DNA of 64,000 nucleotides from Terriglobia bacterium (GTDB taxonomy: Bacteria; Acidobacteriota; Terriglobia; Terriglobales; Acidobacteriaceae), in contig JAIQFC010000020.1 of assembly GCA_020073465.1 (NCBI GenBank), forward strand, positions 1-64,000, given 5' to 3'. Below are positions 25,944 through 32,287 of the stretch, in pieces. Every line of letters begins with the position of its first letter. Within the stretch, counting starts at the first letter, position 1. The notes beneath the pieces were generated by a model that was not told where the DNA came from, did no database searches, and saw only the letters and a program-made list of their open reading frames with translations. The translations under genes and the position numbers were made by a program.

Positions 25944-26444
25944 CTATTCCTCAATCTCCTCCCCCACCTTCCGGTACTTTCCCCGAAAAAACAGCAGCGG
26001 CTGTCCCTCGCGCACTACCGTATCCTCTACCTCCGCGATGAAGATGGTATGGTCACCCGCCACCTCCGCCGAGTGCAGACGGCATTCCAAAAAAGCCAGG
26101 GACCCGTGCAGCACGGGAGTGCCGTGCCTGGTCCGGTCAAATCGTGCCCCGGCTTCCTCTTCCGCGTGCTCATGCGTGCGCTCGGCACGCGCGTAATACT
26201 CCGAAATCGCCCGCTGCCCTTCACTCAGCACGTTGATCCCAAAACGCTTCTTGGCATGCAGGTGGGCGTGGGTGCGCGTCTTATGGTCCACACACACGAG
26301 CACCAGCAGGGGATCAAGCGACACCGAGGCAAATGCGTTGGCAGTCATGCCGTGAACTTCGCCGTCCAGGTCTACGGTAATGATGGTCACCCCGGTGGCG
26401 AAGCAGCCCATCGCTTTTCGGAATTCGGCTGAGTTCAGGGTCAT
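25944..26444 (-). CDS. flavin reductase-like split-barrel protein
   Basis: A 166-residue FMN-binding split-barrel protein. It shows the family start FRKAMGCFATGVTIIT, the flavin loop GMTANAFASVSLDPLLVLVCV, and the late FLECRLHSAEVAGDHTIFIAEV strand pair with the conserved GDH. HpaC/NmoB-type members reduce free FMN with NAD(P)H for partner oxygenases. It lies back-to-back with the F420 operon, about 100 bases between starts, and could be co-regulated with it. The only long gap in the F420 pathway here is the flavin-dependent dehydro-F420 reduction step, so a link is worth testing but is inference. Confidence 0.85.
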   Translation of the reverse strand: MTLNSAEFRKAMGCFATGVTIITVDLDGEVHGMTANAFASVSLDPLLVLVCVDHKTRTHAHLHAKKRFGINVLSEGQRAISEYYARAERTHEHAEEEAGARFDRTRHGTPVLHGSLAFLECRLHSAEVAGDHTIFIAEVEDTVVREGQPLLFFRGKYRKVGEEIEE

Positions 26445-26544
26445 CCGTTGAATTGCCTACAGTACCATGACGCAGGTGCCAATCCTGATTCTGACTCCTG
26501 TATCATCTATCAATCGCACAGGGCAAAGCTACCGAGAGAGCAAA

Positions 26545-27750
26545 GTGAACCTGATCGGCATCCCCGCGGCTACCGCTGAACGTTCGCCATGTTGTCGTTC
26601 CGTGCTGAAGGATCTTCACCCCGGCCATCCGATCTCGCGCGAAACCGCCCTGTGTCTGATCCGCTGCTCCGATGACGATCTGCCAGAACTCCTGGCCGCT
26701 GCACGCGCTGCCAAGGAGCGCTTTAAGCCCGGTATCGTAACTTATTCGCGCAAGGTTTTTCTGCCTCTGACAAATCTCTGTCGCGACTACTGCGGCTATT
26801 GCATCTTCCGCCGCGATCCCGGCGATCCCGGCGCGCACACGATGACTCCCGAAGAAGTCCTTTCCGTGGCCCGTGCCGGAGAGAAGATGGGATGCACCGA
26901 GGCTCTCTTCAGCCTCGGCGACAAGCCGGAACTTCTGTTCCCCGAGATGCGGGAGACTCTCCGCCGTCTGGGCTACAAGTCCACGCTGCACTACCTGGAA
27001 GCCATGTGCGAACTCGTCCTGAGGGAGACCAGCCTGCTGCCGCACCCCAATCCCGGCCTGCTCAGCGCCGAATGGATTGCCCGTCTGGCCGCCGTCTCGC
27101 CCAGCATGGGGCTGATGCTGGAGACCACCAATGCCGGTCTACTCCGCCCCGGTGCGGCCCACGATAATGCCCCCGACAAAGTCCCGGCCAGGCGCCTGCG
27201 TACGATCGAGGAGGCGGGCCGGCAGAGAGTTCCCTTCACCACCGGACTGCTCATCGGCATCGGAGAATCCCCGGAAGACCGCGTCGAAACCCTGCTGGCC
27301 ATCCGCGACCTGCACGAGCGCTACGGCAATATCCAGGAAGTGATCGTGCAGAACTTTCGCGTCAAGCCGGCGATTCCTATGGCGGACTGGCCTGAACCCG
27401 GCCAAGGCGACATGCTCCGCGCCGTGGCGGTAGCTCGCTTGTTACTGCCCAACGTCAATATTCAGGCCCCACCCAACCTCTCCGCGCCATACTATGAAGA
27501 GTTGCTGGATGCTGGTATCAACGATTGGGGAGGAATTTCGCCGCTGACCCCGGACTACATCAATCCGGAAAAACCCTGGCCGCACCTGGCGCAACTGCGC
27601 CTGCGCAGCGAGGCCAAGGGATTCGAATTGCGCCAGCGTTTGCCCGTCTATCCCGAGTTTCTGCCGGCAGTGATGGCCAAGCCTGGTCTGCTTTCTGACC
27701 GGCTGCACACCGCCGTCGATCCTCAAGGCTTTGCCCGGAGGGCAGCATGA
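26545..27750 (+). CDS. cofG: F420 biosynthesis radical SAM subunit CofG
   Basis: A 401-residue (GTG start) radical SAM enzyme that with CofH joins aminoribityl-uracil and tyrosine into the deazaflavin ring Fo. The iron-sulfur motif is CRDYCGYC within LTNLCRDYCGYCIFRRDPG, followed by GCTEALFSLGDKPE, LEAMCELVL and TNAGLLRPG typical of CofG. An ATG 26 codons earlier is an alternative start. It opens an operon in which the next gene overlaps its stop (ATGA). CofG and CofH are separate here, unlike the fused FbiC of Actinobacteria. Confidence 0.94.
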   Translation: MNLIGIPAATAERSPCCRSVLKDLHPGHPISRETALCLIRCSDDDLPELLAAARAAKERFKPGIVTYSRKVFLPLTNLCRDYCGYCIFRRDPGDPGAHTMTPEEVLSVARAGEKMGCTEALFSLGDKPELLFPEMRETLRRLGYKSTLHYLEAMCELVLRETSLLPHPNPGLLSAEWIARLAAVSPSMGLMLETTNAGLLRPGAAHDNAPDKVPARRLRTIEEAGRQRVPFTTGLLIGIGESPEDRVETLLAIRDLHERYGNIQEVIVQNFRVKPAIPMADWPEPGQGDMLRAVAVARLLLPNVNIQAPPNLSAPYYEELLDAGINDWGGISPLTPDYINPEKPWPHLAQLRLRSEAKGFELRQRLPVYPEFLPAVMAKPGLLSDRLHTAVDPQGFARRAA

Positions 27751-28736
27751 TCTGCGTCCTTACCGGCGGGACAGGTGGTGCGAAGTTCGTCGATGGCCTA
27801 CGCCAGGTTATGCCCTCCGAGGAGATCACGCTGGTCGTCAACACCGGCGACGATCTGCTGTGGTGGGGACTCTACGTTTCCCCCGACATCGATTCCATCA
27901 CCTACGTGCTCTCGGGCATGCTCAGCCGCGAGCGCGGCTGGGGGGTCAAGGGCGACACCTTCCTCTGTTTGCAGGCCATGGGACAACTTGGCGAGCCTAC
28001 ATGGTTCCACACCGGCGACCGCGATCTGGCCGTTCACCTGCTTCGTTCGCGCCTGCTGGCCGAGGGCAGAACGCTCTCGGAAGCTACGTCGATCGTCTGC
28101 GGCAAGCTGGGCGTCAAGGCCCGCATTTTGCCCATGAGCAACTCGCGGGTAGAGACCCGCGTGGATACGCCGATCGGCGAGCTGAGCTTCGAAGAGTATT
28201 TCGTGCAGCGCTGGTATCAGGACCCGGTCAAATCGGTGCGCTTCGCAGGGGCCTCCGATGCCGAGCCCGCTCCCGGAGTGATCGAAGCTATTACCTCGGC
28301 GGACGCTGTCCTATTGGCGCCGAGCAATCCCGTCACCAGTATTGGTCCGATTCTTGCTGTGCCCGGCATTCGGGAAGCTTTGCTCAGCGCCCGGGGCAAG
28401 ATCGCCGCCATTAGCCCTATCGTGGGGAACTCTCCGGTCGCCGGTCCTGCAGGAATCCTCATGGCCGCGCAGGGCCTGCCTTGCTCAATTGCCGGAGTAG
28501 CCCAGGCCTACGAGGATTTTCTCGATATCCTGGTCTGCGACACGCGCGATGCTCGTGCGGCCGACGCCCTACGTAAGAACGGCCTGCGCGTACAGTGCAC
28601 CCAGACCATCATGCGTTCCGCCGAAGACAAGGCTGCACTCGCCCGCGAGGTGCTCGCGCTGGTTTCTCCTGCACCAAGTTCAGCTGAATCCTCAACCTCC
28701 GACACCAGCTTCCGACCCCTGGGCCGACAACCGTGA
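27747..28736 (+). CDS. cofD: 2-phospho-L-lactate (or PEP) transferase CofD
   Basis: A 329-residue CofD/FbiA. The start is MICVLTGGTGGAKFVDGL, followed by VNTGDDLLWWGLYVSPDID, RGWGVKGDTFLC and the later APSNPVTSIGPILAV, all standard for the family. It moves the phospho-three-carbon unit from the CofC-made GPP-linked donor to Fo, making F420-0 or its dehydro form. The ATG overlaps the cofG stop by four bases and its own stop overlaps the cofC start. The C-terminal 30 residues are Ser/Pro-rich and unconserved. Confidence 0.95.
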   Translation: MICVLTGGTGGAKFVDGLRQVMPSEEITLVVNTGDDLLWWGLYVSPDIDSITYVLSGMLSRERGWGVKGDTFLCLQAMGQLGEPTWFHTGDRDLAVHLLRSRLLAEGRTLSEATSIVCGKLGVKARILPMSNSRVETRVDTPIGELSFEEYFVQRWYQDPVKSVRFAGASDAEPAPGVIEAITSADAVLLAPSNPVTSIGPILAVPGIREALLSARGKIAAISPIVGNSPVAGPAGILMAAQGLPCSIAGVAQAYEDFLDILVCDTRDARAADALRKNGLRVQCTQTIMRSAEDKAALAREVLALVSPAPSSAESSTSDTSFRPLGRQP

Positions 28737-29389
28737 TCCTCGTCCCCGTCAAGAACCTTGCTGCCGCGAAGCAGCGGCTGGCTTCCGTGCTCGACCAAGC
28801 CTCACGCACCGCACTGGCCCAAGCCATGCTTTCTGACGTTCTTTCAACGCTGTACAACTGGAAGAACAGCCCCGCGGTCGCCCTCGTCACGAGCGATCCC
28901 TACGCGACCGAACTCGCCCGCCGGTACGAGTTCGAAGTCATCCCTGACCTTCAGAATCCGGGAGAGACTGGTGCCATCGAGATGGCGACAGTGATTTGTG
29001 AACAGAGGGGTGTCGACAGCACGCTCGTGATCCCTGCCGACATTCCACTCATCCAATCGTGGGAGCTCGACGAAATCCTGAAACAGGCTCCCACCGAGGG
29101 CAGCGTGCTGGTTCCGGCCGCCGATGGACGCGGCACCAACGCCGCCTTGCGCCGGCCGGCGAATCTGTTCCCGCTGCGCTTCGGCAACGATAGCTTCAAA
29201 CCGCATCATGCCGCTGCGCGGGCGACGAGTAAGCCCTGCGTGGTGCTCAACCTGCCGGGCATCGCCGTTGATGTCGACAATCCCTCCGACCTGCAGCAAC
29301 TCCTCTCCCTGCCCGGCGAAACCCGCGCCCAGAGCCTGGCTCGAGAGTGGGATCTGGAGGACCGTCTGCAGGCCACCGGCTCGCAATAA
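28733..29389 (+). CDS. cofC: phospholactate/PEP guanylyltransferase CofC
   Basis: A 218-residue nucleotidyltransferase. Visible are the GTP-binding start ILVPVKNLAAAKQRLASVL, the metal Asp in VIPADIPLI, and AADGRGTNAALRRP, the CofC/FbiD signature. It activates 2-phospho-L-lactate, phosphoenolpyruvate or 3-phosphoglycerate with GTP; which one cannot be read here. GTG start overlapping the cofD stop (GTGA). A 117-base gap with a 14-base GC palindrome at 29421-29434 separates it from cofE. Confidence 0.93.
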   Translation: MILVPVKNLAAAKQRLASVLDQASRTALAQAMLSDVLSTLYNWKNSPAVALVTSDPYATELARRYEFEVIPDLQNPGETGAIEMATVICEQRGVDSTLVIPADIPLIQSWELDEILKQAPTEGSVLVPAADGRGTNAALRRPANLFPLRFGNDSFKPHHAAARATSKPCVVLNLPGIAVDVDNPSDLQQLLSLPGETRAQSLAREWDLEDRLQATGSQ

Positions 29390-29506
29390 TTGTGGGAATA
29401 TCGGGGGGCAAACGAGACTTGCCCGCCGGCGGGCCATGCAGGCTCCATTACAATGGCTCGCAGTCCTGCGAGTCCTTCTCCGGCGAGAGGGACACCGCAC
29501 GTTCCT

Positions 29507-30304
29507 ATGCCACGCTCTCAACGGAAACGAAATACCACCCCTAGGCGTTCCGGCTCCGAACTCCGCGTCATCCCGATCCCATTCGCCGATGAAGTCCGTC
29601 CCGGCGATTCGCTGGTTGACACGCTCCTCAAATCTCTTCGTAAACACAGACTCTCATTCCGCGCAGGCGACATCCTGGTCCTCAAACACAAAGTTGTTTC
29701 CAAGTCCGAAGGCCGCCTAGTCGATCTAGAGGGAATTCACCCCTCCCCCGACTCTGTGGCCTGGGCCAAGAAATACAACCTCGATGCCCGCGTCATAGAG
29801 CTCGCTGTGCGCGAGAGCCGCTCTGTCATTCGGCGAAAGAATGGCGTGCTTATCACCGAAACGCACCACGGCTTCCTCTGTGCAAACAGCGGGATCGACG
29901 TCTCCAACGTCGACGGAGGCCGCCACGCACTGCTCCTCCCCAAAGATCCCGATCGTTCCGCTGCCCGCCTCCATCGCGATCTCAACAACCGTACCGGCCA
30001 TGCCATCCCGGTCATCATTACCGACAGTTTTGGCCGCCCCTGGCGCGAAGGCCTGACCGAATACGCCATCGGCATCGCGGGTATGAAGCCGCTGCGCGAT
30101 GACCGAGGACGCCGCGATCCGCAAGGGTACAAACTGCGAGTCAGCCTCGAGGCCGTGGCAGACGAACTCGCTTGTGCCGCGGGACTGATGTGCGGAAAAC
30201 TCAACCGGACCCCGGCCTGCATCGTGCGCGGATTCAATTACGACCCTGGCCGAGGCCGCACGCGCGACCTGCTCCGTCCTGCAGATACCGATCTCTTCCG
30301 CTAA
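29507..30304 (+). CDS. cofE: F420-0:gamma-glutamyl ligase CofE
   Basis: A ligase of about 265 residues that adds glutamates to F420-0. It shows GDILVLKHKVVSKSEGR, NGVLITETHHGFLCANSGID, and ITDSFGRPWREGLTEYAIGIAGM with the metal and phosphate-binding residues. It lacks the C-terminal FMN-reductase domain of actinobacterial FbiB, so it is the single-domain archaeal type. Start is uncertain: ATG at 29507 is closest to family length, ATG at 29453 and TTG at 29390 are in frame, and none has a good ribosome site. A Lys/Arg-rich stretch precedes the conserved core. Confidence 0.92.
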   Translation: MPRSQRKRNTTPRRSGSELRVIPIPFADEVRPGDSLVDTLLKSLRKHRLSFRAGDILVLKHKVVSKSEGRLVDLEGIHPSPDSVAWAKKYNLDARVIELAVRESRSVIRRKNGVLITETHHGFLCANSGIDVSNVDGGRHALLLPKDPDRSAARLHRDLNNRTGHAIPVIITDSFGRPWREGLTEYAIGIAGMKPLRDDRGRRDPQGYKLRVSLEAVADELACAAGLMCGKLNRTPACIVRGFNYDPGRGRTRDLLRPADTDLFR

Positions 30305-30348
30305 ACTGTTGCAGAGACCTTGCAAGCTACGTCTCTACGGAGGAAGCC

Positions 30349-31581
30349 GTGCCTCGCGAACTCTCCCCTTCGGAATTGGAAAGCTTCCGCTCGCTGGGCT
30401 GGGCGGGAGTTACGCCGATGCTCTCGCCCACAGTGCGTCGGGCCCTGGATCGTGTCCTCGAGACCCAGAATGGAGGTACGCTCTCTCTCGACGAGTGCTT
30501 CACTCTCGCCCACTCCACCGGGGACGACCTCCTCGGCTTGCTGGTTGCGGCCGATTTGCTGCGCTCCGAACTGGCCGGGAACCTCGTCACCTATGTAGTC
30601 AACCGCAATATCAATTTCACCAATGTGTGTTTCGTGGGATGCAAGTTCTGCGCCTTCAGCCGCGGCCCGCGCGAATCCGACAGTTACTTCCTCAGCCTTG
30701 AAGAGGTCGCGCGAAAGTCGGTCGAAGCCTGGCAGTTGGGCGCGACTGAAGTCTGCATCCAGGGCGGACTGCCACACGGTCTGCCCCCCTTCTACTACCG
30801 CGACATCCTGCGTGCCGTGAAGAACGCTGTGCCGGGCATGCACATCCACGCCTTCTCGCCCATGGAGATCGTCTACGGCGTCGAACTCACGGGCATGCCG
30901 CTCGCCGACTATCTCTCGATGCTGCGGGATAATGGCCTGGGCACTCTGCCCGGTACCGCCGCTGAGATTCTCGATGACGAGGTCCGCATGGTCCTGTCGC
31001 GCAACAAGCTATCCACTGCACAATGGATCGAAGTCATCCGCACCGCCCATCGCTGTGGCATCCGCACTACTTCGACCATGATGTACGGGCACATGGAAAC
31101 GCCCGCGCACTGGGTACGGCAGATGCTCTTGATACGCGAGATGCAACAGGACACTGGGGGCTTCACCGAGTTCGTCCCTCTTGGCTTCGTGCACCAGAAC
31201 ACGCTGCTCTTCCAGCAGGGACTGGCCCGCAGCGGTCCGACGCTCGCCGAGCACCTGAAAGTTCACGCTCTCGCCCGCATATTGCTGGCGGGATCGATCA
31301 ACAACATTCAGGTGTCGTGGGTAAAACTGAACCGGAAGCTCTCACAACTCTGCCTGCACGCGGGTGCCAACGACTACGGTGGAACGCTGATGGAAGAAAA
31401 TATTTCCCGCGAGGCCGGGGCGACGGCTGGTCAATACACCAGCCCGGAAGACTTTCAGTCGTTGATTCTTGAGATCGGCCGCATTCCCGCCGAGCGCAAT
31501 ACCAGTTACTCACGAATCAACATCAAAGTGCCGCTGGAGCAGTTCACCGCCGAAGTAGGACTGGAGCCGGAATTTGCATGA
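30349..31581 (+). CDS. cofH: F420 biosynthesis radical SAM subunit CofH
   Basis: A 410-residue radical SAM enzyme, partner of CofG in Fo synthesis. The cluster motif is CFVGCKFCAF in NINFTNVCFVGCKFCAFSRG; further blocks are GATEVCIQGGLPH, HIHAFSPMEI and TTSTMMYGHMETP, which separate CofH from menaquinone-route MqnC/MqnE relatives. The GTG before PRELSPSE has GGAGG six bases upstream and is chosen over longer unsupported starts. It follows cofE after about 44 bases and precedes npdG by 10. Confidence 0.94.
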   Translation: MPRELSPSELESFRSLGWAGVTPMLSPTVRRALDRVLETQNGGTLSLDECFTLAHSTGDDLLGLLVAADLLRSELAGNLVTYVVNRNINFTNVCFVGCKFCAFSRGPRESDSYFLSLEEVARKSVEAWQLGATEVCIQGGLPHGLPPFYYRDILRAVKNAVPGMHIHAFSPMEIVYGVELTGMPLADYLSMLRDNGLGTLPGTAAEILDDEVRMVLSRNKLSTAQWIEVIRTAHRCGIRTTSTMMYGHMETPAHWVRQMLLIREMQQDTGGFTEFVPLGFVHQNTLLFQQGLARSGPTLAEHLKVHALARILLAGSINNIQVSWVKLNRKLSQLCLHAGANDYGGTLMEENISREAGATAGQYTSPEDFQSLILEIGRIPAERNTSYSRINIKVPLEQFTAEVGLEPEFA

Positions 31582-31591
31582 GGAAGCAAGC

Positions 31592-32287
31592 ATGAGCGCC
31601 GCTGGGTCGCGTCCCATTGCCATTCTTGGAGGTACTGGCCCCGCCGGCCTGGGCCTCGCCCTGCGCTGGGCGCGCGCAGGAGAAACCATCATCATTGGCT
31701 CCCGCGATGCCCAACGCGCGCAAGCGGCCGCCGCGTTGGTCAAACTGAGCATCGGAGACCAGGCCAATATCTCCGGCATGGAGAACAGCTCCGCCTGCGC
31801 CGCCGCTGACATTCTGATGCTCACCGTCCCGTTCGAGAGCCAAGCCACGCTGCTCAAGCAGCTCAAGCCTGCAATCAGCCCGGGCAGTATTCTCATCGAC
31901 GCCACTGTCCCGCTGGCCGCCGGAGTGGGCGGACGTGCCTCGCGGACTCTGGGCGTCTGGCAGGGTTCGGCCGCGCAGCAGGCTGCCGAACTCGTTCCCA
32001 AGGACGTGAGCGTGGTTGCGGCCTTCCACAACGTCTCCGCCGACCTGCTTAACGGAGACAACCCCCTCGACTGCGACGTCATCGTCTGCAGCGACGATTC
32101 CGACGCCGCTCAGCTCACGCGCGATCTCGCAGCAAAGATTCCGGGAATCCGCGCCATCGACGGAGGCAAGCTGGAAAACTCGCGCATCTTGGAGCAGATC
32201 ACCGCCTTGCTCATCGGCCTCAACATCCGCCACAAGGGCCACGCGGGAATCCGCATCACCGGTCTTCCGTTGGAATCGTATCGATAG
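31592..32287 (+). CDS. F420H2:NADP oxidoreductase-like protein
   Basis: A 231-residue NpdG/FNO-family protein. The dinucleotide motif reads IAILGGTGPAGLGLALRWARAG, followed by IIGSRDAQRA (phosphate of NADP), LTVPFES and AFHNVSADLL. It passes hydride between NADPH and F420, so this operon both makes and charges the cofactor. GAGGAAG lies five bases before the ATG, and the stop of cofH is 10 bases upstream. The next gene runs in the opposite direction. No F420-dependent end enzyme was recognised in the window. Confidence 0.9.
   Translation: MSAAGSRPIAILGGTGPAGLGLALRWARAGETIIIGSRDAQRAQAAAALVKLSIGDQANISGMENSSACAAADILMLTVPFESQATLLKQLKPAISPGSILIDATVPLAAGVGGRASRTLGVWQGSAAQQAAELVPKDVSVVAAFHNVSADLLNGDNPLDCDVIVCSDDSDAAQLTRDLAAKIPGIRAIDGGKLENSRILEQITALLIGLNIRHKGHAGIRITGLPLESYR

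Follow-up and report, generated by a model that had tools for sequence, protein, structure and literature searches.

A coenzyme F420 operon in an acidobacterial genome with no nitroreductase-family match, and a clade of CofC proteins with a polar pocket residue

Known routes to F420 and an acidobacterial operon

In the mycobacterial FbiABCD pathway to coenzyme F420, phosphoenolpyruvate (PEP) is used, dehydro-F420-0 is formed and the C-terminal domain of FbiB acts as the reductase, a reduction that requires FMNH2 according to the excerpted text of PMC6450877. In the same excerpt the archaeal cof pathway of Methanocaldococcus and Methanosarcina has separate CofG and CofH, a single-domain CofE and no FbiB-type reductase, and this archaeal form of the reductase gap is acknowledged as an open question. 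Thermomicrobium roseum has a stand-alone reductase, FbiE, and the 3PG-F420 pathway of Mycetohabitans does not require a reductase. Two questions are open (PMC6450877, PMC8498797, PMC8764529), namely which C3 acid forms the linker of F420 and, in organisms lacking FbiB and FbiE, which enzyme reduces dehydro-F420. Here we analyze the six-gene operon cofG-cofD-cofC-cofE-cofH-fno, at positions 26545-32287 on the + strand of a 64,000-nucleotide stretch of DNA from an acidobacterium (the window; contig 28 of a 5.9 Mb host genome that is 99.99% complete). The operon as such is ordinary, and F420 genes in Acidobacteria have been reported previously (PMC8498797, in excerpt); what is added here is the genome-wide absence of a reductase family, a flavin reductase linked to F420 genes, and a clade of CofC proteins with a polar pocket residue. 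The open-licence PubMed Central (PMC) literature searched yielded nothing on acidobacterial F420 chemistry, on the residue at the FbiD-92 position, or on any of these three points.

A reading of the window made from the sequence alone (the sequence-only reading) had claimed that a dehydro-F420 reductase was missing, and the gap proved wider than claimed. The nitroreductase family (PF00881), which was detected in 14 of 14 control genomes under the same search, had no match in the whole host genome, so the gap extends beyond the operon and covers the entire family as Pfam models it, which makes this genome a clean case. The genome-wide search for FbiB-type domains that the sequence-only reading had proposed was run as well: TIGR03553 gave a single match of 11.5 bits (E 0.68), below its cut-off, and an alignment search for FbiE gave no match at 1e-5. 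As neither the FbiB C-terminal domain nor FbiE was found in the host genome, it does not fall within the PEP route that ends in an FbiB or FbiE reductase. The gap is not special to this host. PF00881 was also absent from 14 of 40 genomes of the same family (38 CofC-positive genomes plus G121 and G400), and the stretches around the Paracoccus alcaliphilus and Leisingera caerulea operons hold no annotated nitroreductase gene.

TIGR03553 was rejected as a marker of the reductase, since below its cut-off it matched 12 of the 14 control genomes at E values up to 1, and 29 of 53 CofD-positive genomes of the phylum (52 that exceed the cut-off, together with the partial G234) at 1e-3 with none over the cut-off; the FbiE alignment replaced it. 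Judged by eye, most of the 12 TIGR03553 loci that were fetched hold what we take to be iodotyrosine-deiodinase-like nitroreductases.

The CofC pocket and the acid of the F420 linker

CofC, the guanylyltransferase that selects the C3 acid, is encoded in the window at 28733..29389 (+; TIGR03552, 152 bits, cut-off 105). In FbiD, Leu92 has been named as a side chain that binds PEP (PMC8764529), and the window CofC has Glu78 (codon GAG, 28964..28966, +) at this position, which corresponds to Met91 of MycB3-CofC. In the alignment to solved enzymes the positions of FbiD Lys17, Asp116, Thr148, Gly163 and Ser166 are retained, and the characterized pocket (Leu or Met at 92, Lys17, Asp116, Thr148, Gly or Ser at 163, Ser166) is thus departed from at position 92. 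Among 139 CofC rows, in which some organisms appear twice, the residue at this position was polar in 114 (Glu in 97, His in 13 and Gln in 4) and Leu, Ile or Met in 25; in a scripted CofC alignment that printed a shifted residue for the FbiD and M. mazei rows, both were assigned Leu by motif, and the FbiD numbering was checked separately. The polar class comprises the examined Acidobacteriota except family f48, Rokubacteria, two metagenome-assembled genomes (MAGs) titled 'Proteobacteria' and the typable MAGs titled Deltaproteobacteria, Syntrophobacter or Binatia; the hydrophobic class comprises archaea, Chloroflexota, T. roseum, Paracoccus, Leisingera, Paraburkholderia, Sphingobium and the acidobacterial family f48. 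At the thresholds used, three columns only separated the two classes (L3, Q14 and E78 in window numbering). On the CofC tree the polar rows need two changes, or one in 88% of bootstrap trees, a bootstrap that is not fully settled. In genomes of family f48 (L075-L077, L079, L081), matches to CofG and CofH lie on one long open reading frame (ORF), as in FbiC, beside a Leu-type CofC, which indicates two different F420 systems in the phylum.

FbiE was searched for with an alignment of five nitroreductases encoded beside cofD and the T. roseum nitroreductase encoded beside its cofC, in 80 selected CofC- and CofD-positive genomes from which most of those without a PF00881 match had been omitted as trivially negative (the host, G000, was kept). 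FbiE was clearly distinct from other nitroreductases, with a place of at least 204 bits in 10 of the 80 genomes and a next best place of 119 bits. Among the genomes typed for the CofC residue, FbiE was present in none of the 56 polar ones versus 6 of the 14 hydrophobic ones (Fisher 2.3e-5, kinship not corrected). Among 13 nitroreductases that were fetched, the four in the FbiE range had both an [AS]P[LI]F motif and the His of AP.xH, and the nine others (eight from polar genomes, one from a hydrophobic genome) had neither; the two positives independent of the search model, from L249 and L261, had both. Of the fetched cof loci themselves, none of the 53 polar ones and 4 of the 12 hydrophobic ones contained a nitroreductase hidden Markov model (HMM) match, the remaining 15 of the 80 being untyped for the CofC residue (3 of them with a match).

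We consider it an evenly balanced judgement that the CofC and CofD of the polar clade use a saturated acid instead of PEP, and that the reductase step is skipped. Along this route CofG and CofH would form FO, CofC would activate a phosphorylated C3 acid with GTP, this acid being in the polar clade 2-phospho-L-lactate (2-PL) or 2- or 3-phosphoglycerate (2-PG, 3-PG) in place of PEP, CofD would join the activated acid to FO, CofE would add glutamates, and Fno would exchange hydride between the F420 product and NADP(H). With a saturated acid no dehydro-F420-0 would be formed, and hence no reductase would be needed. We infer that the saturated-acid clade is marked by the polar residue (Glu78 here) that replaces the Leu or Met at the acid site of the characterized enzymes. 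Counted in support were the lack of PF00881 in the host, the lack of FbiE in all 56 polar genomes, the location of the residue at the reported PEP-contact site, and the score of the window CofD, which was higher against M. mazei CofD (3c3d, 261 bits) than against FbiA (6uvx, 188 bits). We know of no sequence marker for a CofC/CofD pair specific to 2-PL.

Several points weigh against this reading. Ten of the 80 genomes searched for FbiE were untyped for the CofC residue and four of those ten were FbiE-positive; when the four positives that had supplied the model were removed, the comparison became 0 of 56 versus 2 of 10 (p 0.021); and completeness was not given for 39 searched genomes that were reached through loci. 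As judged from the CofC tree (one or two changes), the polar proteins amount essentially to a single lineage, so that the 56 genomes count for far fewer independent observations and the statistics overstate the number of events, and the CofD tree, the backbone of which is weak, needs five changes for the CofC classes and does not track them cleanly. Nitroreductases of some kind are present in many other polar genomes, and the locus HMM overlooks divergent ones. An example is the polar genome G444, in which a SagB-family peptide dehydrogenase (TIGR03605, 169.5 bits, cut-off 78.4) lies ~5.7 kb from cofC; this gene (L161:3029-4588, contig C114) has two PF00881 stretches and no FbiE match in the alignment search. 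G404 (C57) and G458 (C439) likewise have PF00881 matches at a similar distance from cofC. Operons of hydrophobic-type proteobacteria also have no nitroreductase annotated nearby, so absence alone is no proof of the route. No lactate kinase yielding 2-PL has been identified, according to the excerpted text of PMC6450877, no biochemistry for any demonstrably polar-type CofC was found in the open-licence PMC literature, and the reduction could be carried out by an enzyme of unrelated descent. The possible use of PEP together with an unrecognized reductase is the main rival of the saturated-acid reading.

The sequence-only reading had offered phospholactate, 3-PG or a separate reductase as the way around the gap; a nitroreductase-type reductase was not found in the genome, and 3-PG by the Mycetohabitans mechanism is disfavored. 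The latter would give 3PG-F420 without a reductase, and the best solved-structure match of the window CofC is indeed the 3-PG enzyme (7p97, 80.8 bits, versus 49 bits for 6bwg). However, the Ser162 that is diagnostic for CofC using 3-PG (PMC8764529) is aligned with Gly151 in the window (codon at 29183..29185, +), with neither Ser nor Thr there, Gly was found in 113 of 113 polar rows having a residue at this position, and Met91 is replaced by Glu. We regard this mechanism as very improbable here, and in view of the absence of the Mycetohabitans serine any 3-PG route would need a different one. On chemical reasoning only, Glu, Gln and His are able to hydrogen-bond, so that an acid bearing a hydroxyl group (2-PG or 3-PG, for instance) would fit them, and a congener with a hydroxylated linker made by the polar clade from one of these acids by such another mechanism is a conceivable, though unlikely, outcome. 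The Mycetohabitans structure argues against it, as its main-chain carbonyls hold the hydroxyl and Met91, the effect of which is called indirect, does not (PMC8764529). If the hydroxylated-linker proposal were true, the polar clade would be a candidate for the environmental producers of a 3PG-F420-like cofactor whose existence has been inferred (PMC8764529). The one-residue CofC clade reduces the question to a few assays, whose outcome would also tell which form of the cofactor numerous uncultured soil bacteria make; such CofC/CofD assays need cognate pairs (PMC8764529). In that work the CofC of Ca. Entotheonella factor was assayed, and with its own CofD it came to prefer PEP.

A flavin-reductase-like neighbor and other genes of note

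The statement in the sequence-only reading that the operon holds no flavin domain is literally right, but a PF01613 gene adjoins it on the opposite strand, 100 bp from the start of cofG. That reading had overlooked this gene and the conservation of its linkage to F420 genes, as well as the unusual pocket residue of CofC. The gene, which we term flvR (25944..26444, -), encodes a flavin-reductase-like protein of 166 aa (PF01613, E 3.7e-43; 147.7 bits, cut-off 27), and is divergent from cofG; the host genome has one PF01613 match besides it. The intergenic stretch (26445..26544) is a possible shared control region; a simple scan found no sigma-70-type site in it, with 1.3 expected by chance. Against the named equivalogs StyB, HpaC, HsaB, FerA and RutF, FlvR scored below every curated NCBIfam cut-off, and its nearest solved relative is 1rz0, phenol 2-hydroxylase component B (E 7.4e-36).

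When 80 genomes of the same family were searched with flvR, 27 matched at 1e-20, of which 22 at 66-100% identity and G448 at 50% were taken as the 23 carriers (G423, with one in-frame stop, was included), and G399, G409, G414 and G444 (38-39% identity, three of them CofC-positive) were excluded. CofC was detected in 22 of the 23 carriers, and there was one carrier (G400) among 42 CofC-negative genomes (Fisher 2e-8, kinship not corrected); in this count the partial CofC of G452 and that of G404, split over two places, were positive, and G418, G427, G440 and G454, with 49-59-bit matches only, were negative. G400 (L164:9457-10092) is the sole genome of the 80 with a close flvR ortholog and no CofC match, perhaps because the operon was lost or the assembly is incomplete there. 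In 12 of the 23 carriers the gene and cofG diverge, and in G448 it lies just upstream of cofG on the same strand. Among the 80 cof loci, an flvR HMM matched 18, all with acidobacterial titles: in 11 the gene diverges from cofG, in 5 it shares the strand of cofG, at spacings between 23 bases ahead of the estimated start of cofG and 25 bases within it, and in 2 it lies ~4 kb away. In five titled relatives (L203-L206 and L208; the CofC of L203 is identical to that of G448) the operon begins with flvR. These associations suggest that flvR has a role in the F420 biology of the host lineage.

That role might be in F420 synthesis itself, with PEP used as in mycobacteria and dehydro-F420-0 reduced outside the nitroreductase fold, and with flvR as the leading candidate in the host lineage. 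The position of the gene beside cofG or at the head of the operon, its co-occurrence with CofC and the FMNH2 dependence of FbiB noted above speak for this. It is nevertheless opposed by the lack of flvR in 16 of the 38 CofC-positive family genomes, eight of which also lack a PF00881 match, so flvR cannot be the reductase throughout the clade; by the lack of a significant trade-off between flvR and nitroreductases across the family genomes (p 0.19); and by the nearest relatives of FlvR, which are flavin reductases of two-component monooxygenases. We judge this explanation improbable, at roughly one chance in a few. As a clade-wide replacement for FbiE, flvR was rejected, since it is missing from many F420 genomes and six-gene operons with neither gene exist (e.g. 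G415 and G428).

The neighborhood of flvR in other genomes also bears on its role. A luciferase-like gene, K7, immediately adjoins flvR in seven genomes (G404, G435, G436, G439, G442, G452 and G458), in four of which (G404, G435, G436 and G452) an outer-membrane beta-barrel gene, flvR, K7 and K5, a gene for an unknown protein, form a row a few kb from cofG. The adjacency to K7 counts against a reductase of dehydro-F420-0 and would fit a flavin reductase that draws on or supports the F420 pool, e.g. by reducing FMN with F420H2 or NAD(P)H on behalf of a luciferase-like enzyme, with no part in F420 synthesis. In keeping with such a role, K7 was found in 15 of the 80 family genomes, all 15 of them CofC-positive. 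The match is incomplete in both directions, as K7 is missing from 12 of the 23 flvR carriers (in nine of these 12 flvR adjoins cofG) and flvR from 4 of the 15 K7 genomes. We place the F420-pool role a little short of even; it and the saturated-acid reading can be true together. K7 scored 103 bits with TIGR04020 and 98.5 bits with TIGR03619, both below the cut-off, and may depend on either FMN or F420.

In the host, K7 (L166:12029-13132) lies on contig C24 at ~180-191 kb (L166:7974-19115), in a row with a large outer-membrane-receptor-like gene, K5 and molybdenum-hydroxylase-type genes with the domains FAD_binding_5, CoxG and MoCoBD. A second luciferase-like protein, encoded at C24:196795-197862 (L167:4895-5962), resembles F420-dependent methylene-H4MPT reductase (TIGR03555, 159 bits, below cut-off), and its gene adjoins ketopantoate-reductase-like and isopropylmalate-synthase-like genes. 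Downstream of many cof operons in the family lie genes for an ABC importer consisting of a ProV-like ATPase (K1), a permease (K4) and an OpuAC-type binding protein (K2); K1 was present in 11 and K2 in 9 of 27 stretches compared (e.g. L149:684-2979 and L161:4651-6919), and none of the three genes was found downstream of the window operon.

The operon and its comparison with known systems

The sequence-only reading had described six genes in this order and in one direction, separate CofG and CofH and a single-domain CofE in an acidobacterial host, and on all of these points the present analysis agrees. The genes are intact; scores are given with the curated NCBIfam thresholds in brackets. The FO synthase subunits are encoded by cofG (26545..27750, +; TIGR03550, 441.7 bits [213.35]; CRDYCGYC motif) and cofH (30349..31581, +; TIGR03551, 495.4 bits [374.1]), with one CX3CX2C motif in each. 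The transferase joining the C3 acid to FO is encoded by cofD (27747..28736, +; TIGR01819, 334.2 bits [257.45]), the glutamate ligase by cofE (29390..30304, +; TIGR01916, 240.2 bits [180.65]), which domain and family profile searches found to have a single domain, and the F420:NADP oxidoreductase by fno/npdG (31574..32287, +; TIGR01915, 232.4 bits [149.8]). As CofC, CofD, CofE, CofG and CofH each exceed the curated cut-off, cof-type F420 biosynthesis is indicated, and the operon is, with enzyme roles assigned by family membership, a complete F420 biosynthesis gene set. The closest titled relatives of CofD, at 80-88% identity, are from MAGs of Candidatus Sulfotelmatobacter, Acidobacteriaceae and Acidobacteria. 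The ATGA and GTGA overlaps that had been described hold for cofG/cofD (27747-27750) and cofD/cofC (28733-28736), but the remaining junctions are without a certain overlap. The likely start of cofG is the GTG at 26545, in an ORF open from the ATG at 26467; it gives 401 aa, near the ORFs of 393-404 aa in several relatives, and in further relatives the ORFs are open longer. For cofE the candidate starts are TTG 29390, ATG 29453 and ATG 29507, for cofH it is probably GTG 30349 (ORF open from 30172), and for fno the candidates are TTG 31574 and ATG 31592.

Compared with described systems, the operon shares with the archaeal cof pathway the separate CofG and CofH, the single-domain CofE, the lack of an FbiB-type reductase and, in M. 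mazei CofD, the closest solved structure of its CofD, but it differs in having its genes in one operon with fno and in the Glu of its CofC where M. mazei has Leu. With mycobacterial FbiABCD it shares the families for FO formation, guanylylation, transfer and glutamylation, whereas it has neither the FbiC nor the FbiB fusion and its genome has no nitroreductase-fold match. As in T. roseum, cofC and cofD are separate and adjacent; there, however, a nitroreductase is encoded by the second gene after a Leu-type cofC, and the window has neither feature. The Mycetohabitans pathway (7P97) is similar in the best solved CofC match and, if a saturated acid is used, in needing no reductase, but the window CofC differs in the diagnostic serine and in the Glu for Met91. 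Finally, the plasmid-borne cofGHDCE-npdG operons of Paracoccus and Leisingera are likewise compact, with separate CofG and CofH, npdG and no annotated nitroreductase nearby, and they differ from the window in their Leu-type CofC, their gene order and an attached F420-type LLM gene.

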